A DNA stretch of 64,000 bases from the NCBI GenBank assembly GCA_009922615.1, contig RFVF01000005.1:1-64000 (forward strand), given 5' to 3'. The translations under genes and the position numbers were made by a program. The notes under the pieces were generated by a model. It saw only the letters and a program-made list of their open reading frames with translations, had not been told where the DNA came from and made no database searches. This stretch comes from Pseudomonadota bacterium (lineage in GTDB: Bacteria; Verrucomicrobiota; Verrucomicrobiia; Limisphaerales; SXTU01). Below are positions 43,614-50,495 of the stretch, in pieces (the first letter of the stretch is position 1; every line of letters starts with the position of its first letter).

Positions 43614-44408
43614 TTACTTGGCCTTCGTGCGCTTCTTCGCTTCGAAGAACTCCTTGCGCAACTCGCCCAGCGCCACCGTGTAGCGGCCCTTGTCGTTGTT
43701 GGCGTCCAGCGCCTCCATGAGCAGCTTGAACTTTTCCTCGATCTGCGGGCGCGTGACGAAATCATCGGCGCGCAAGGCCGGAAAGCACATTTGCGTCAGC
43801 CGGGCGAAACAGGTGTTCAAGTTCTGCTCGTCCCGCTGGCGCTCATCGCGGACGCGCAGGAACGAGACCGAGGCGGAGAGAAAATTCTCGGCGGCCAGCG
43901 GCTGGTTTTTCGCGTTGGCGGCGCGGATGGCGTAGTCGAAATAGACCATGCCAAACAACTGGGCGTAGCGTCCCTCGATCAAGTCCGGCATGAGCTGGAA
44001 CCGGCGGATGATGTCCTCATTGAGCTGGGCCAGCGTGTTGCTGGAGACGCCACCGGAGGTGGCCATCTGGGTGCGCAGTTGCTGGGCCAGCTCGGTCACT
44101 TTGCGATCCATCGCCTGCTCGCGCGCGGCCAGGTGGGAGTTGAGCGTTTTCTCGAGCTCCCGGTTGAAGGCGGCGTAACGGTTTTCGTTTTCCTTTTCCA
44201 AAGACTGCTGGATCGCCGCCTTGTCCTGTTCGTAATTCTTGTGGCTGGCGAACCAGGCGAAGACCACGAGGATGGCCGCCATGCCGATGAGCAGGCCGGC
44301 ATAGACCTTGACCATGTCCAGCAAGCGGCGCTCGTTTTCGTGCAAGGCCTGCACCTGGGCTTTCAGGTTTTCCAGTTCGGAATTCAAGTTGCCTGGGTCG
44401 GCGCTCAT
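43614..44408 (-). CDS. Coiled-coil single-pass membrane protein, unknown
   Basis: I do not recognise the family. The protein has 264 residues. A coiled-coil N-terminus (NLNSELENLKAQVQALHENE) is followed by one membrane helix (about 38-58, YAGLLIGMAAILVVFAWF). A long charged helix follows (about 60-130, with QQSLEKENENRYAAFNRELE), then a helical C-terminal domain. It lies 60 bases downstream of the receiver-kinase gene on the same strand and may be the last member of that operon. The start at 44408 is chosen over 44456 because the extra residues are not hydrophobic or conserved-looking. Confidence 0.65.
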   Translation of the reverse strand: MSADPGNLNSELENLKAQVQALHENERRLLDMVKVYAGLLIGMAAILVVFAWFASHKNYEQDKAAIQQSLEKENENRYAAFNRELEKTLNSHLAAREQAMDRKVTELAQQLRTQMATSGGVSSNTLAQLNEDIIRRFQLMPDLIEGRYAQLFGMVYFDYAIRAANAKNQPLAAENFLSASVSFLRVRDERQRDEQNLNTCFARLTQMCFPALRADDFVTRPQIEEKFKLLMEALDANNDKGRYTVALGELRKEFFEAKKRTKAK

Positions 44409-44468
44409 GGTTCTGGCAGCAGCGTGGCCCTCGCCGCGTGACTTGTCCAATTTCAAATGCCCGGCGGA

Positions 44469-46499
44469 TTACTCCGCGAGTTCCTCCGCTTCGGTTCCGC
44501 CCGCCGGCAACATGATGCTCACCGTGCTGGGTCTGGTGCGCTGCACCTCCAGCCGCCCGTGGTGCAGTTCGACGATCTTCTGCGTCACCGTCAGTCCGAG
44601 GCCGAGGCCGACGGTCCGCTTGGAATAGAAAGGCTCCGTGGCATGGACGGCGCTTTCCGCGTCGAAGCCCGCGCCGGCGTCCTGCACGTTGATGCGCACC
44701 CAACGCGACCCGTCCGGGTGAGTTTCATTCGCGGAGCTGACGTGCACGGTCTGGTCGTCCGCCGTGGCTTGCAGGGCGTTGAGCAGGACTTCGACGAGGG
44801 CGTGTTTCAAACCGGCACGTTCCGCGACGAGCGTTAACGGTTGTCCCCCGCTCTCGTATTGCAGCCGTGCGGCGGCACGCGGACTTTCCGCGTGCGCTTC
44901 GGAAAACGCCTCTTCAATCAACTGGGCCAGCGGCAGTTTTTCCATCCGGCGCAAACCATCGCGGGAGAGATGCTGCATCTGGCGGGCGAGGCGGGTGATG
45001 CGGCGAACGCTTTCGCCCATGATGCCAGCAACTTCCTTGCGAACGGTGGGATCCTCCGCGCCGGTGCTCAACAGTTGCTGGGTGGTGGAGAGCGGCACGA
45101 GTGAGTTGCCAATTTCGTGGGCCAGTTGCTCCGCCATTTTGCGGACCAGGCGGAGGTTCGCAGCTTCGATCTCCATCTGTTGCGCGCGGTCGGCCTGCGT
45201 CACGTCTTCGAGGAGGAGCAAGGCTGCGTCTGGCCTGGTTGCGCCCGCTCGTTGAAACGGCTTGAGCGTCACCCGGAATATGGCCTCGCCCGCACCGGGC
45301 AGCCGACATCGGCTGACGGCCGGAGATTGACCGGATTGCAACGTTTCAAACACCTTGCTCCCGAGAGATTGGGGCAGGTCTGCAAACGTGAAGTTCCCGA
45401 TCGCTCCGCCGCGCCTGAACAGGCTGCGCGCGGTCTGGTTTGCTTGAAGAATGGTCAGGTCATGGGCCACGACAATCACCGCGCTGCCGAGTTGGTTCAG
45501 CGTGTCGGTCATCATGCCGTGCTGCTGGGCGAGCGCGTCGTGCAGCCAGGCGTTGCGGATGGCCAGGCCAAGTTCCTCCAACAAGTGGAAGACGAGGGCA
45601 AGTTCCTCGCTGGCAAACAGCTCACCCGTCAGGCGACCATCGAAGACGGCAATGCCCAGCAATGATTCGCGGTCGAAAATAGGAATAGCGACTTGCGCGC
45701 CCAGCAATTCGAACTCGCGGGCGATGTCGGGATCTTGTGCGGTCTCAGCGGTGCCGCGCCGAAGGATGCGCGCGTGGCGCTGGAGGTGCGCGCCGATGCC
45801 GCCTCTGAGGGAGAGAGCGAAATGATTGAGCAACTGGGGGGAGATGCCCAGCGCGCAGGCGGCGGCCAGGGTGGGTGAGGTGAAGTCGCCGCCGGGGGCG
45901 GTGGGCGTGTTCGACGGCGCTGGCAGACCGCCGTCGCTACGCAAAAAAATGGCGGCGCGATTCACGCCGAGGATTTCGCGCAGGAGTTGGAGAAATTCAC
46001 GGAGCAGCGCATCGGTGTGCAGGCTGTGCGTGAGGATGCCGGAGAAATCGCGCAACGCACCGAGAGCCGGTTCGGGCTTGCGCGCGGGAGCGGTCATATC
46101 GGCGACCGTGATCGGCGGCGGGGCGGGCAGCGGTTTGGAATCCTTCCGCCAACTGCGCTCCAAGAGAGAGGTCAGCAACCGCACGCGGACGGGCTTGGTG
46201 AGGATGTAGTCCACCCCGAGCAAGTAAGCTTCTTCTTCCCATTCCCACTGCGTGGCGGTGGCATAAATAATCACCGGACAGCCGGGCAGGGCGCGTCGGA
46301 GGTGCTCGATGGCGCGGATCGGACGCACGTTCGTCAAGTCGGCGTCGAGAAGGATGGCGTCCACCATGCCCTGGTTGAACAAAGGTTCGGCCGCCCAAGC
46401 CTCGGCATGATGCAGCACTCTGAATTCGCCGGTGTCCAACACGGCGCGCACGGCCTCGGCGAGGCCGGGGTGCTGGGCGATCACGACGAGGTTTTTCAT
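44469..46499 (-). CDS. Receiver-GAF-PAS-histidine kinase (NtrB-like kinase core)
   Basis: This 676-residue cytoplasmic protein has, in order: a receiver (about 1-120, phosphoacceptor Asp in DAILLDADL, Lys in LTKPVR); a GAF domain (about 145-330); a PAS domain (about 335-450); a dimerisation/H-box helix with EQLAHEIGNSLVPLSTTQQL; and an HATPase with N-box EVLLNALQATA, G1 in QDAGAGFD and GLGLGLTVTQKIV. All phosphotransfer residues are present. It overlaps the upstream membrane kinase by ATGA, with a good GGAGG seven bases before the start. The receiver may be the target of that kinase, giving a two-step phosphorelay. No DNA-binding output is present. Confidence 0.88.
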   Translation of the reverse strand: MKNLVVIAQHPGLAEAVRAVLDTGEFRVLHHAEAWAAEPLFNQGMVDAILLDADLTNVRPIRAIEHLRRALPGCPVIIYATATQWEWEEEAYLLGVDYILTKPVRVRLLTSLLERSWRKDSKPLPAPPPITVADMTAPARKPEPALGALRDFSGILTHSLHTDALLREFLQLLREILGVNRAAIFLRSDGGLPAPSNTPTAPGGDFTSPTLAAACALGISPQLLNHFALSLRGGIGAHLQRHARILRRGTAETAQDPDIAREFELLGAQVAIPIFDRESLLGIAVFDGRLTGELFASEELALVFHLLEELGLAIRNAWLHDALAQQHGMMTDTLNQLGSAVIVVAHDLTILQANQTARSLFRRGGAIGNFTFADLPQSLGSKVFETLQSGQSPAVSRCRLPGAGEAIFRVTLKPFQRAGATRPDAALLLLEDVTQADRAQQMEIEAANLRLVRKMAEQLAHEIGNSLVPLSTTQQLLSTGAEDPTVRKEVAGIMGESVRRITRLARQMQHLSRDGLRRMEKLPLAQLIEEAFSEAHAESPRAAARLQYESGGQPLTLVAERAGLKHALVEVLLNALQATADDQTVHVSSANETHPDGSRWVRINVQDAGAGFDAESAVHATEPFYSKRTVGLGLGLTVTQKIVELHHGRLEVQRTRPSTVSIMLPAGGTEAEELAE

Positions 46500-48679
46500 C
46501 TCTCGTCCTCCAACGTGGCCGCCGCTGGTGAGGCAGGGGGAGCGAAATGCACGGGCAGATCCACCGTGACAGTGGTGCCCTTCTTTTCTTCGCTAGTAAT
46601 GTTCAAGTTGCCACCGTGTTGATGAACGATCTTGCGGCAGATGGCGAGCCCAAGGCCGAAGCCGCGATTTTCATCGCCGGAGTCCTTCGTCGTGAAATAG
46701 GCCGAGGTGAGACGCTGGAGGTTTTCCCGGCTGATGCCTTCACCGTGGTCGATCACGCTCACGCGGACCCATTCGCGGCCTGCCTCGGTGGCGGTGAGAT
46801 TCTGCACCTCGATGCGCACGGTGGAGCCGAGCGGCGAAGCGTCGATGGCGTTTGAGAGCAGGTTGCCCAGGCAGCGTTGAATTAGCACGGCATCCATTTC
46901 GACGACCGTCGCCGGAAATTCAGGCAGCTCGGCGCGCACTTGGCGGCGCTTGAGCTTGGGCTCGGCCAGCTCGACCACTTTGCGGATGAGCTCGCCGATC
47001 TGCATGCGGGAAATCTGCACGGTGTGGTTTTGCGAGAAGAACAGCGCATCCTTTACGTAGGCTTGGATGGTGCCGACGTTGCGCAGGCAGGTGGGGAGCA
47101 GTTCGTTGGCCCCGTCGGTGTTGCCGTTGACGGTGGCCTGGGTCATCTGCAGGAAAGTGGAGACGGGCGTGAGCAGGTTGTTGAGGTCGTGCGCCATGCC
47201 GCGGGACATGCGGCCCAGCAGCTCCAGTTCCTCCGCGAGCAGCACCTGCTTTTTGAGGCGGATTTGGTTGAGGATGAGGCTGAGGTTTTTGACGAGACGC
47301 GTGAGCAAGAGGAGGTCGTTGGGCGTGTAGGGTGCGCCGCTGACTTTCTCGCCGATGAGCAGCAGCCCGAACGGTTCGTCGCCACTGAAGAAGGGGAAGC
47401 AGAATTCCGGCTCGAAGCGTTTCAGGAGCTGTCGTGCTTCGCGCTCCATCTCGGTCTCGCCGGGCATGATGTAGGCAAGATTGAAGGCGAGGTAGCTGGC
47501 GGTGGTGTTCTGGAAGATCTGGAAGATGGGTGAATCGGCGCGCAGCTCCGGGAGTTGGAGCGATGGCGTCCTCGGGTGGCCCCGAAACGCGGTAAAGACG
47601 TGCGTGGATTCATCGAGCAGGATGATTTGATACGTGCGCACGCGGATCGTCTTCACGAAGAGCGCGTCGAGATCGTTGAGTAGCAGGTCGGCGTTGTTGT
47701 AGAACTGCACCTCCTGCAGGAACGAGCGCACCTTGTCGTGATATTCGAAGCGGTCGCCATAGCGGTCGCTGAGGATGCGTTGTTCGAGGGATTCGTCGCC
47801 CTTGCCAAACAGGCGCGGGAAGAAAATTGAGGCCACCAGCGCGCTGACCAGCAGCACTCCCAGCGAGGCGAGGAAGGTGAAGCCCGTGAATTCGCCGGGG
47901 CGGAAGACATTCAGCAGCAGTAGTAGCAGCAGCCCGATGAGGAACAGGAACAAGAGGCGCACCGCGTGCGCAGCCGCCTTGCCCAGCGTGACGTGGATGT
48001 CCAGCAGATGGTGCTGGAGCACGCTGTAGCCAACGATGATGCCGTAGAAGATCGCTGCTGCGCTGCCAAAGGGGAAGATAGCGATGCGGGTGAATGGATA
48101 TGTGTCGAACCCGACGATGGGCAGGATGTCGTTCCAGCCGAAACCAATCAGGATACCATTGGCCCAGAGCAGCGCCTTTACCCGTGCACGGTGGAGGCGC
48201 TGCAGTGTGTCCAGTTTCCGGTAGAGGATGACGACCGTCGCGGTGGTGACGATGACATAGCTGGCTACGAACGCCCAAAAGCCCGGTCCCGCGACGGAGT
48301 AATAATAGGCGCCGCCGAGATAGTGCACGCCGGAGGTGAAGAAGCCGAAGGCGTTGGTCAGCGCCAGCAGTCCAAACCAGCCGTAGAGCCCCGGCAGCCA
48401 GCGGGGCAGCTTCACTTGGGCGATTAAGAGGCTGAGGTGGAACAGACTGATGGGCAGGAAAATCACGCCGTAATGGAGGAAGGCCGACCAGAAGCGTGCC
48501 GAGGCTTCCTCCTCCACGCTGAACATGAAGAACGTGCCGAAATTCCACACAGAGATCGACAGGCCCCAGAGCAGATACACGCGGTTCAGCGTCGAGCGCA
48601 GGTCGCGCGTCAGCACGAACAGCGTCAGCGCCAGATTGGTGACGGCGGCGGTCAACGGGATGAGCTCGTAGAACTTCAT
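46496..48679 (-). CDS. Membrane histidine kinase with N-terminal multi-helix sensor and GAF domain
   Basis: This 727-residue protein has about eight N-terminal membrane helices (1-300), starting FYELIPLTAAVTNLALTLF; this is the architecture of the 7TM/His_kinase_N sensors seen in PrsK/PEP-CTERM-type kinases. A GAF-like domain follows (about 330-490), then the H-box SRGMAHDLNNLLTPV, N-box NLLSNAIDAS, and G boxes DHGEGIS and GFGLGLAICRKIV. All key residues are intact. It overlaps the ketosynthase-like gene before it by four bases (ATGA), with AAGGAG upstream, and the receiver-kinase after it, also by ATGA. It probably senses a membrane or lipid signal. Confidence 0.88.
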   Translation of the reverse strand: MKFYELIPLTAAVTNLALTLFVLTRDLRSTLNRVYLLWGLSISVWNFGTFFMFSVEEEASARFWSAFLHYGVIFLPISLFHLSLLIAQVKLPRWLPGLYGWFGLLALTNAFGFFTSGVHYLGGAYYYSVAGPGFWAFVASYVIVTTATVVILYRKLDTLQRLHRARVKALLWANGILIGFGWNDILPIVGFDTYPFTRIAIFPFGSAAAIFYGIIVGYSVLQHHLLDIHVTLGKAAAHAVRLLFLFLIGLLLLLLLNVFRPGEFTGFTFLASLGVLLVSALVASIFFPRLFGKGDESLEQRILSDRYGDRFEYHDKVRSFLQEVQFYNNADLLLNDLDALFVKTIRVRTYQIILLDESTHVFTAFRGHPRTPSLQLPELRADSPIFQIFQNTTASYLAFNLAYIMPGETEMEREARQLLKRFEPEFCFPFFSGDEPFGLLLIGEKVSGAPYTPNDLLLLTRLVKNLSLILNQIRLKKQVLLAEELELLGRMSRGMAHDLNNLLTPVSTFLQMTQATVNGNTDGANELLPTCLRNVGTIQAYVKDALFFSQNHTVQISRMQIGELIRKVVELAEPKLKRRQVRAELPEFPATVVEMDAVLIQRCLGNLLSNAIDASPLGSTVRIEVQNLTATEAGREWVRVSVIDHGEGISRENLQRLTSAYFTTKDSGDENRGFGLGLAICRKIVHQHGGNLNITSEEKKGTTVTVDLPVHFAPPASPAAATLEDER

Positions 48680-49935
48680 GCGCGCCGATACTCCTTGAAC
48701 ACGAGGCACGAATTCTTGCCGCCGAAGCCGACGTTTAAATTCATCGCCGCCCGCACCGGGTAGGGGCGTGAGCGGCCGGCGACGTAGTCGAGATCGCAAC
48801 CATCAGCGGGTGCGGCGAGGTTGGCCGTGGGTGGAATTTCGCGGTGATGGATCGTCAGCGCCGTGATGACGGACTCCACTGCGCCCGCCGCGCCGAGCAA
48901 GTGGCCCGTCACCGGTTTGGTGCCGCTGACCGCGATGCGATGTGCGTGCTCGCCAAAGAGTTTCTTGATGGCCTTGGTCTCTACCACGTCGTTCGCCTCC
49001 GTTGCGGTGGCGTGAGCGTTGATGTAGTCGATTTGCGTCACGTCGAGACGCGCGCGCCGCAGGGCTTTCTCCATCGCGCGGTGTAGGCCGATGCCTTCTG
49101 GATGCGGCGAAACCGAGTGAAAAGCCTCGCAGTTGCGCCCGTGGCCGGCGATTTCGGCGTAAATTTTTGCGCCACGGCCGAGCGCGTGCGCGAGCTCCTC
49201 CAACACGAGAAACGCCGCGCCTTCGCCCAGCAGGAATCCATCACGCGACTGGTCGAACGGCCGCATCGAGGTCTTCGGCTCGTCATTACGCGCGGTCATT
49301 ACCTTGGTCAGGCAGAATGCACCCCACAGCGGGGCGAGGATCGGGGATTCGGCACCGCCGGCGACGAAAATGTCTGCGTCGTCACGCTGTATCAGATCGA
49401 AGGCATGGCCCACGGCGTCGTTGCCCGAGGCGCTGCCAGTGCTGATGGAAATGGCGTGGCCCCTGATGCCCAGTTCGAGCGCGATTTCCCCGCTGCCGCC
49501 ACCGCAGTAGGCGTTGATGAGGGTGAAGGGGCTCATGTGCTTGAACCCGCGTTCCTCGAACATGGTCTGGCCTTTGAACGAGCTTTCCATGCCGCTGACG
49601 GTGGTGCCTTCGATAATGCCCGCGCGGTCAGGATCGAGGTGGTTGAAGTCCACCCCGGCGTCGGCCGCAGCCATCCGGGCCGCGCCGATGCCGTAGCGGA
49701 TGGACAGCTCGAAGCGCCGGGCCTTCTTCGCGTCCATGTGGCGGCTCGCGTCGAAGTCGCGGACTTCGCACGCGATCTTGTTGGGCAACTCGCTGACATC
49801 AAAGCGCGTGACCGGGGCCGCCGCGCTGCGCCCTTCGCGCACCGAAGCCCAAAATGTCCCGAGATCGCAGCCGTTGGGCGCGACCACGCCGAGGCCGGTG
49901 ATGACCACGCGGCGTTGGGGCAGGTCACGCATCAT
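48676..49935 (-). CDS. Beta-ketoacyl-ACP synthase-like protein with Ser in place of the active-site Cys
   Basis: This 419-residue FabF-type thiolase-fold protein has RVVITGLGVVAPNG at the N-terminus. The catalytic His residues are kept in INAHATATEANDVVE and TKPVTGHLLGAAG, and GFGGKNSCLVF ends it. At the nucleophile, where FabF has T-A-C-T-S-G, this protein reads STGSASGNDA: residue 168 is Ser (AGC codon at 49434-49432 on the minus strand). It may be a decarboxylating, chain-length-factor-like or otherwise repurposed ketosynthase. It starts at the ATG at 49935, overlapping the methyltransferase stop (ATGA), with AAAGGA eight bases upstream. It is translationally coupled to a methyltransferase and a kinase, not to other fatty-acid genes. 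Confidence 0.9.
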   Translation of the reverse strand: MMRDLPQRRVVITGLGVVAPNGCDLGTFWASVREGRSAAAPVTRFDVSELPNKIACEVRDFDASRHMDAKKARRFELSIRYGIGAARMAAADAGVDFNHLDPDRAGIIEGTTVSGMESSFKGQTMFEERGFKHMSPFTLINAYCGGGSGEIALELGIRGHAISISTGSASGNDAVGHAFDLIQRDDADIFVAGGAESPILAPLWGAFCLTKVMTARNDEPKTSMRPFDQSRDGFLLGEGAAFLVLEELAHALGRGAKIYAEIAGHGRNCEAFHSVSPHPEGIGLHRAMEKALRRARLDVTQIDYINAHATATEANDVVETKAIKKLFGEHAHRIAVSGTKPVTGHLLGAAGAVESVITALTIHHREIPPTANLAAPADGCDLDYVAGRSRPYPVRAAMNLNVGFGGKNSCLVFKEYRRA

Positions 49936-50495
49936 GCCTGCGGTCCTTTCCACGGAATGATCGCCGGGGTGCTGCCTTGATACGCGCGGTAAGCCTCGCC
50001 GAACTTTTCCACCAACGCCGTTTCTTCGAGGCGCACGCGCGCTGCCAACGCGGGGACGAAACACAGCAAAACCACCCCGAGCGTGGCGGGCGCTTGCAGG
50101 AGCAAGGCGGCGGCGAGGAGTTCCAAAATCATGGAGAAGTAGGTGGGGTGTCGCATCCACCGAAAGGGTCCGGTTCGGACGAACTGGTGCGACTCGCGAA
50201 TCTCGACGTGCAGGCTCCAGAATTTTCCCAGCGCGGCGATCGCGCTGCGCCGGATGCCGATGGACGTGACGGCGCACGCCCAGCCCAAAACGAAGGTGGT
50301 CAGGTTCCACTCAGGTTTCCGCCAGCCGAACTCCACGAGGGCACCCACGAGCATCAGCGTGCCGGTCCCGACGAACCAAGTCAGCGTCCGAGTTTCGCGC
50401 ACTTGCCCGGGGAGGGTGTCCCGTTTGGCCCGCAGTTCCACCATCCGGGCAAGGTAAATGCCCAGCACCGAACAGACTGCCAGCCAGTTTGCCAT
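49932..50495 (-). CDS. Isoprenylcysteine carboxyl methyltransferase-like membrane protein
   Basis: This 187-residue protein has about four to five membrane helices. The C-terminal half has the ICMT/PEMT signature: HQFVRTGPFRWMRHPTYFS, then an E-E-x-x-L segment (RLEETALVEKFGEAYRAY). The family methylates carboxyl or phospholipid amine groups with S-adenosylmethionine at the membrane. Bacterial members are often next to type III polyketide synthases or lipid genes; here the partner is a FabF-like protein. It is the first gene of a four-gene operon whose members overlap by four bases each. The bacterial substrate is unknown. Confidence 0.85.
   Translation of the reverse strand: MANWLAVCSVLGIYLARMVELRAKRDTLPGQVRETRTLTWFVGTGTLMLVGALVEFGWRKPEWNLTTFVLGWACAVTSIGIRRSAIAALGKFWSLHVEIRESHQFVRTGPFRWMRHPTYFSMILELLAAALLLQAPATLGVVLLCFVPALAARVRLEETALVEKFGEAYRAYQGSTPAIIPWKGPQA

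Follow-up and report, generated by a model that had tools for sequence, protein, structure and literature searches.

A conserved Verrucomicrobiota gene set joining a FabF-like ketosynthase to sensor histidine kinases, with a possible role in lipid signalling

In Ralstonia, a fatty-acid methyl ester is produced and perceived through the phcBSRQ operon (PMC8578825). As set out in the relevant parts of two reports, it encodes a methyltransferase, a sensor histidine kinase, a soluble protein that joins a receiver to a histidine kinase, and a further receiver protein; its receiver proteins are without a DNA-binding domain, and PhcB is described as a SAM-dependent methyltransferase (PMC8578825, PMC6989110). 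Single components of other described systems are also relevant here. A rhizobium FadL protein takes up long-chain AHL signals, and no kinase features in the part of that report that describes it (PMC9938287). Photopyrone signals are made by a ketosynthase, again according to the part of the report that deals with them (PMC4578411).

We analysed a window of DNA (the whole stretch studied, 64,000 nucleotides) in which four genes run on the minus strand from position 50495 down to 44469. The first encodes an ICMT-like membrane methyltransferase of 187 aa (49932-50495, minus strand; hereafter ICMT). It is followed by a FabF-like ketosynthase of 419 aa with serine at the catalytic cysteine position (48676-49935, minus; KS), recognised by its PRK07314 match and predicted fold and carrying the ketoacyl-synt N and C domains; by a membrane histidine kinase of 727 aa (46496-48679, minus; HK1) with HisKA_7TM, HisKA and HATPase_c domains (PF16927, PF00512 and PF02518); and by a pseudoreceiver-GAF-PAS-histidine kinase of 676 aa (44469-46499, minus; HK2), in which Pfam detects Response_reg, GAF and HATPase_c. 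Two further genes, one of the FadL/OmpP1/TodX family (PF03349) and one encoding a receiver-HisKA-HATPase protein (RECHK3), were found to belong with these. As judged from gene neighbourhoods, the operon thus holds four of the six members of an envelope module comprising ICMT, KS, HK1, HK2, the FadL channel and RECHK3.

Like phc, the module places a methyltransferase, a sensor kinase and receiver-kinases together (ICMT, HK1, HK2 and RECHK3), a likeness of gene kind and order only. The phc operon, in the available parts of its description, has neither a ketosynthase nor a FadL-family channel, and the HK2 receiver of the Verrucomicrobiota module is degenerate. The rhizobial case is similar in having a FadL-family channel that handles a hydrophobic signal, but the signals described for it are AHLs. 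The photopyrone and dialkylresorcinol systems (PpyS/PluR, DarABC), in so far as their descriptions were available, share the principle that a ketosynthase makes the signal. PpyS and DarB, however, are ketosynthases of other classes, and their signals are received by LuxR-type solos instead of kinases. A literature search on combinations of the module parts, with most subscription papers outside its scope, returned no relevant description. The preliminary description, too, knew of no described system of this composition. Compared by description, the logic of the module resembles that of Phc while the parts appear to differ.

Adjacent genes overlap by four bases at all three junctions, as first reported, and the sequence read directly is ATGA each time (ICMT/KS, 49932-49935; KS/HK1, 48676-48679; HK1/HK2, 46496-46499; all minus strand). 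The overlaps do not show the fixed stoichiometry that had been drawn from them: ATGA overlaps of 4 nt abound in bacteria, and in this family the arrangement is not kept everywhere. With start codons picked by script, the ICMT-KS junction was −4 in 18 of 23 rows (15 of 20 after removing three rows that repeat a genome), the other spacings being −19 (L035), +8 (L179), +134 (L021), +159 (L043) and +313 (L042). The four genes are under purifying selection. In comparisons where dS was near saturation, dN/dS values against L021, L023 and L026 were 0.08-0.10 for KS, 0.09-0.14 for HK1, 0.18-0.24 for ICMT and 0.15-0.20 for HK2; against L025 they were 0.28, 0.20, 0.21 and 0.30, respectively, so that HK1 was lowest in that pair.

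Relatives of HK1 were sought by a scan over 84,980 species genomes (the query carried one extra residue before the methionine; alignments begin at the methionine). It found 142 relatives, and the best 80 were retained and yielded 78 loci. Matches in 29 of these (L021-L049) extend beyond the kinase core; the remainder were judged to be generic kinases. Together with L170-L173, L175 and L179, these 29 make up 35 distinct HK1-chosen loci. Omitted from this set were L174 and L176 (second contigs of G036 and G046), L178 (G054), repeats of a genome and the FadL-RECHK3 loci of the source genus; L211-L215 were counted separately. Because the scan stops at the best 80 of 142 and depends on exact 8-residue patterns, it may miss distant carriers.

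Across the 35 HK1-chosen loci (29 of them from the best 80 of 142), KS adjoins HK1 in 33 and HK2 is present in 34, compared with 21 for ICMT, 12 for FadL and 13 for RECHK3, the last two occurring together in 12. KS is missing only from L045 and L047, both of which start inside HK1, and HK2 only from L048, where KS too is just a fragment. The KS-HK1-HK2 arrangement also occurs in L211, L212, L214 and L215, accompanied by ICMT in L212 and L214, and L214 has all six module genes. Gene order is kept between HK1 proteins of down to 39% identity. By these comparisons the gene set is kept in synteny across many Verrucomicrobiota genomes from at least two orders, the orders being inferred in part from record titles (‘Limisphaerales’ for L024). 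Synteny confined to the source genome, which would have undermined the original proposal, is thus not what was found, and its conservation across many genomes shows a real linkage, as proposed, of an acyl enzyme with kinases.

A neighbourhood arising by chance or peculiar to a lineage, with no joint function, is highly improbable given the order retained at such identities and in at least two orders, and given joint presence and absence within the source genus. It could nevertheless be argued from the restriction to Verrucomicrobiota in the searches made, from the fact that ICMT and the FadL-RECHK3 pair are not always adjacent, and from loci without KS. L213 is HK1-HK2-RECHK3, and in L178 an HK1-like kinase matching only from residue 262 adjoins RECHK3, with no KS, HK2 or ICMT found within 18 kb. 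As for the source genus, searches of G006, G008 and G009 detected neither HK1 nor the operon KS, ICMT or RECHK3 at the cut-offs applied, absences that are confounded by small genomes with few kinase candidates and by completeness (71% for G008, 80% for G009).

The distribution of HK1 is patchy. It was present in 16 of 58 genomes, its own included, in 20 of 197 genomes of the Chthoniobacter flavus order, C. flavus among them, and in 2 of 387, one of them its own, in a phylum-wide sample in which two candidates were scored per genome. The records for L021-L049 are labelled Verrucomicrobia or subgroups, except L022 (‘Proteobacteria’), L027 (‘Klebsiella pneumoniae’) and L041 (‘bacterium’); the labels of L022 and L027 look wrong, a second genome collection placing both in the source genus. 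No full-length HK1 relative outside Verrucomicrobiota was seen in limited searches. Plasmids gave no tblastn match to HK1 at 1e-25, and at 1e-60, with two to three candidates per genome and no positive control, HK1 was found in 0 of 297 genomes from the phylum of L095 (titled Holophagaceae) and 0 of 398 from that of L094 (titled Rhodospirillales). Zero counts of this kind are not in themselves evidence of absence.

The position of the FadL and RECHK3 genes varies. Outside the source genus, both lie downstream of HK2 in L025, L028, L030, L032, L035, L036, L170, L171, L172 and L179; they come after HK1 in L048 and precede KS in L175, and RECHK3 alone precedes KS in L049. In G036 and G046 the pair is near the end of another contig (L174, L176), and may thus be contiguous with the operon. 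In seven genomes of the source genus (G000, which is the genome of the window, and G001, G002, G003, G005, G007 and G010) the pair occupies a separate second locus, at about 46360-48575 of contig C2 in G000. In the G000 copy of RECHK3, stretches 20-99 and 162-418 of the query match in different frames, an interruption that may be real or may be an assembly error. The operon is present in G004, but no RECHK3 was detected there at 1e-45. The presence of a FadL-family channel in the module fits a hydrophobic, acyl-type signal; channels of this family carry ordinary fatty acids and hydrocarbons too.

The N-terminal region of HK1 matches PF16927 (HisKA_7TM) at 47.3 bits (cut-off 28.6). The kinase had been described as ‘7TM-like’, but the model of the sensor region shows nine membrane helices (7+2), with a hairpin between helices 4 and 5, and a GAF-like domain (pLDDT 78.2, pTM 0.51, moderate confidence). 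The GAF-like domain is supported by profile and fold, the Pfam GAF models scoring below cut-off, and the best structural matches of the sensor were a GAF-containing kinase and, weakly, GPCR bundles. Residues were counted after exclusion of genome repeats and of proteins under a length limit: the phospho-acceptor His497 and eight other catalytic positions of HK1 are kept in all 33 rows. A PrsK/PEP-CTERM system was considered and rejected; the likeness to PrsK (TIGR02916) is confined to the kinase domain (residues 427-710), which scores 94.6 bits against a cut-off of 300, and the membrane part is unmatched.

The two receiver-containing kinases differ in their receivers. In HK2, where PAS_4 and HisKA score below the Pfam cut-offs, the phospho-acceptor His461 is kept in 28 of 28 rows and the receiver passes its Pfam score (37.3 against 30.2). 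With receiver positions assigned by eye, the acidic pair after strand 1 is present in 0 of 28 rows (three have one Glu) and Ala occupies the strand-4 Thr/Ser position in 19, whereas D52 is kept in 25 and K102 in 27. On these residues the HK2 receiver is degenerate. The RECHK3 receiver, by contrast, is canonical, with D27, D28, D70 and T98 each in 20 of 20 rows, as is its phospho-acceptor histidine. A relay, if there is one, should therefore run to RECHK3, and not through the receiver of HK2 as had been envisaged.

ICMT matches the Pfam family PF04140 (66.8 bits, cut-off 24) and aligns with the ICMT of 4a2n (phmmer E 1.7e-11), but scores only 87.1 bits against the 160 of NF040696, the protein-S-isoprenylcysteine O-methyltransferase equivalog. 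No isoprenoid gene was recognised in the module either, and the prenyl signal that had been offered as an option was rejected. ICMT was not found in nine of the 35 loci that do have upstream sequence (L029, L030, L032, L044, L046, L049, L171, L173 and L175), nor in L211 and L215, which implies that methylation is not a core step.

In another reading there is no dedicated signal. KS and ICMT might tailor a membrane lipid, with HK1, HK2 and RECHK3 tuning their expression or activity to the state of the envelope. Kinases commonly sit by genes they control, FadL and ICMT are envelope proteins, and no autoinducer logic is visible. We nevertheless consider this quite unlikely: KS and HK1 stay joined at loci without ICMT, three kinases for two enzymes would be unusual, and Pfam recognises no DNA-binding domain in any of the module proteins, six in all.

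KS is a close relative of FabF that departs from it at the nucleophile. It exceeds the cut-off of the PRK07314 subfamily (468.8 bits against 387) and falls below that of the FabF equivalog TIGR03150 (472.5 against 493.75). FabF enzymes are its nearest relatives of solved structure (identity 35-44% over the 50 matches listed), and the AF2 model (pLDDT 86.5) has the thiolase fold of KAS II, with a TM of 0.93 to the solved FabF 4b7v (Foldseek E 8.8e-53). In alignment with 4ls5, codon 168 (AGC, 49432-49434, minus strand) places serine at the catalytic cysteine position; His308, His345 and Lys340 are kept, so the Cys-His-His triad of FabF is incomplete. Among 36 distinct readable orthologues this site is Ser in 25, Cys in 11 and nothing else, and the His/Lys/His residues are kept in the rows checked. 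The site in L173 was read by eye; apparent insertions in that gene (G036) were considered as introns and rejected, being runs of N.

In a tree of 44 rows, built without nine rows repeating genomes and without fragments of 360 aa or less, a 100/100 branch splits 29 operon KSs, as a clade of their own, from 15 housekeeping-type FabFs. The Ser/Cys state needs two changes on this tree, and Cys looks ancestral because the outgroup has it. L214, with six genes and a Cys KS, shows that the module is not tied to serine. A housekeeping-type FabF was found (E 1e-80) in 18 of the 20 genomes searched, all but G002 and G012, and on this evidence the operon KS is an extra paralogue. The possibility that it is itself the housekeeping FabF of its genome was rejected: G000 has a second FabF-type gene on contig C47, and the tree separates the two. 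When the whole window was used as a DNA query in its own genome, 410 bases matched the gene on C47 and 40 bases matched C247.

The ordinary condensing synthase of the preliminary description is at odds with the serine nucleophile in this KS. Serine mutants of ketosynthases are usually poor condensing enzymes. The main rival to a signal-making role is that KS is an input subunit of the kinases, binding acyl- or malonyl-ACP without condensing it and so reporting fatty-acid synthesis to HK1 and HK2, with FadL and RECHK3 reporting fatty acids from outside. We regard this as unlikely, although the data do not separate a reader of acyl-ACP from a maker of signal. Cys is swapped only for Ser within an otherwise retained FabF fold and active site, dN/dS against L021, L023 and L026 is lower for KS and HK1 than for the other two genes, and KS stays beside HK1 more often than ICMT does in the HK1-chosen loci (mostly from the best 80 of 142) counted above. 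Yet both histidines would be needless in a pure binding protein, Cys is kept in 11 of the 36 orthologues, a neighbouring SAM enzyme suggests chemistry, and against L025 KS is not among the slowest-evolving genes.

The reading we favour, plausible but somewhat short of probable, is that the module makes or tailors, and senses, a fatty-acyl-derived and often methylated lipid signal. An acyl enzyme, a SAM enzyme and a channel for hydrophobic compounds, joined with kinases, fit a fatty-acyl lipid that the cell makes or tailors and senses at its membrane. As Ser alone replaces Cys, a nucleophile is probably still used. KS would load Ser168 with an acyl group drawn from acyl-ACP, supplied by the housekeeping fatty-acid synthase, and hand it on by acyl transfer, not by normal chain elongation. 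ICMT could then cap the product with SAM, for example as a methyl ester or enol ether, and the FadL-family channel would give this hydrophobic product a route over the outer membrane. HK1, with its membrane helices or its GAF domain as the sensor, would detect it and autophosphorylate on His497; HK2, soluble and with a dead-looking receiver, may modulate, and phosphate would pass to the canonical RECHK3 receiver and on to an unlinked regulator.

In favour of this reading are the synteny, the standing of KS as an extra paralogue under purifying selection with only Ser or Cys at its active site, and the precedents of Phc, of AHL uptake by FadL and of photopyrone synthesis. The joint absence of HK1, KS, ICMT and RECHK3 from G006, G008 and G009, confounded as it is, may also speak for it. 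Several observations weigh against it: the module has no recognisable gene for a carrier protein, reductase or dehydratase, ICMT was not found at the loci listed above, serine ketosynthases usually condense poorly, kinases occur without KS (L213, L178), some KSs keep Cys, the dN/dS of KS against L025 lies above that of ICMT, and RECHK3 has no match in G004 and is interrupted in the genome of the window. Of the lipid-signal device first proposed, what survives is a conserved set of acyl enzyme and kinases into which FadL fits; fixed stoichiometry, the relay through the receiver of HK2, an ordinary condensing synthase and a prenyl product are not supported.

A further proposal, and in our view a rather doubtful one, is a lipid-status or lipid-signal system in which a Ser ketosynthase is dedicated to a membrane kinase as its partner. 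The ketosynthase would serve as a non-elongating, signal-making acyltransferase or as an acyl-ACP-reading subunit, together with a FadL channel, a three-kinase relay and an unlinked output. If such a partnership is true, it would represent a form of bacterial signalling that is so far undescribed. Verrucomicrobiota are common in soil and fresh water, and if the favoured reading is right the module would be a candidate lipid-based signalling system for them, with Chthoniobacter flavus Ellin428 (L035), a cultured bacterium that has all six genes and is not known as a pathogen, as a named carrier. It would also mean that a fatty-acid ketosynthase has been recruited into signal transduction through a change of its catalytic residue, and more systems would then share the organisation of Ralstonia Phc.

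The membrane region of HK1, the first of the two histidine kinases encoded by the operon, spans window positions 47996-48679 and is predicted to form a seven-helix bundle, in which a beta hairpin connects helices 4 and 5. The predicted bundle shows weak similarity to GPCR bundles (e.g. 8jmt, E 1.5e-3, TM 0.63 by target). In genome G004, the HK1 match carries a single in-frame TAA (locus L008, on a contig shared with L022).

In the window, the operon is followed on the same strand by a gene for a 280-aa protein (window 43614-44456), which is without a Pfam match. Across the 30 loci compared, its cluster comprises only the window, L021 and L022.

An EthD-domain protein (PF07110; L032:8335-8688) is encoded directly upstream of the ketosynthase gene in L032, a locus without the ICMT-like gene. 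In seven loci (L030, L034, L035, L036, L038, L044 and L046), the module is preceded by what we take to be an NrdR-like gene. This gene is followed in some of the seven by one for a 185-aa protein, the L035 copy of which gave no Pfam match, and by one for what is presumably a HIT-like protein.

In the genome from which the window comes, the FadL-RECHK3 locus, which encodes the FadL-family channel and the receiver-containing kinase, lies on contig C2 (L162:6361-8576), and its RECHK3 gene is interrupted near where the receiver domain ends.

The module was also present under the record titles 'Proteobacteria bacterium' (L022), 'Klebsiella pneumoniae' (L027) and 'Akkermansia muciniphila' (L023 and L033). 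All four titles look wrong, and the genomes appear instead to belong to the window's genus or order.
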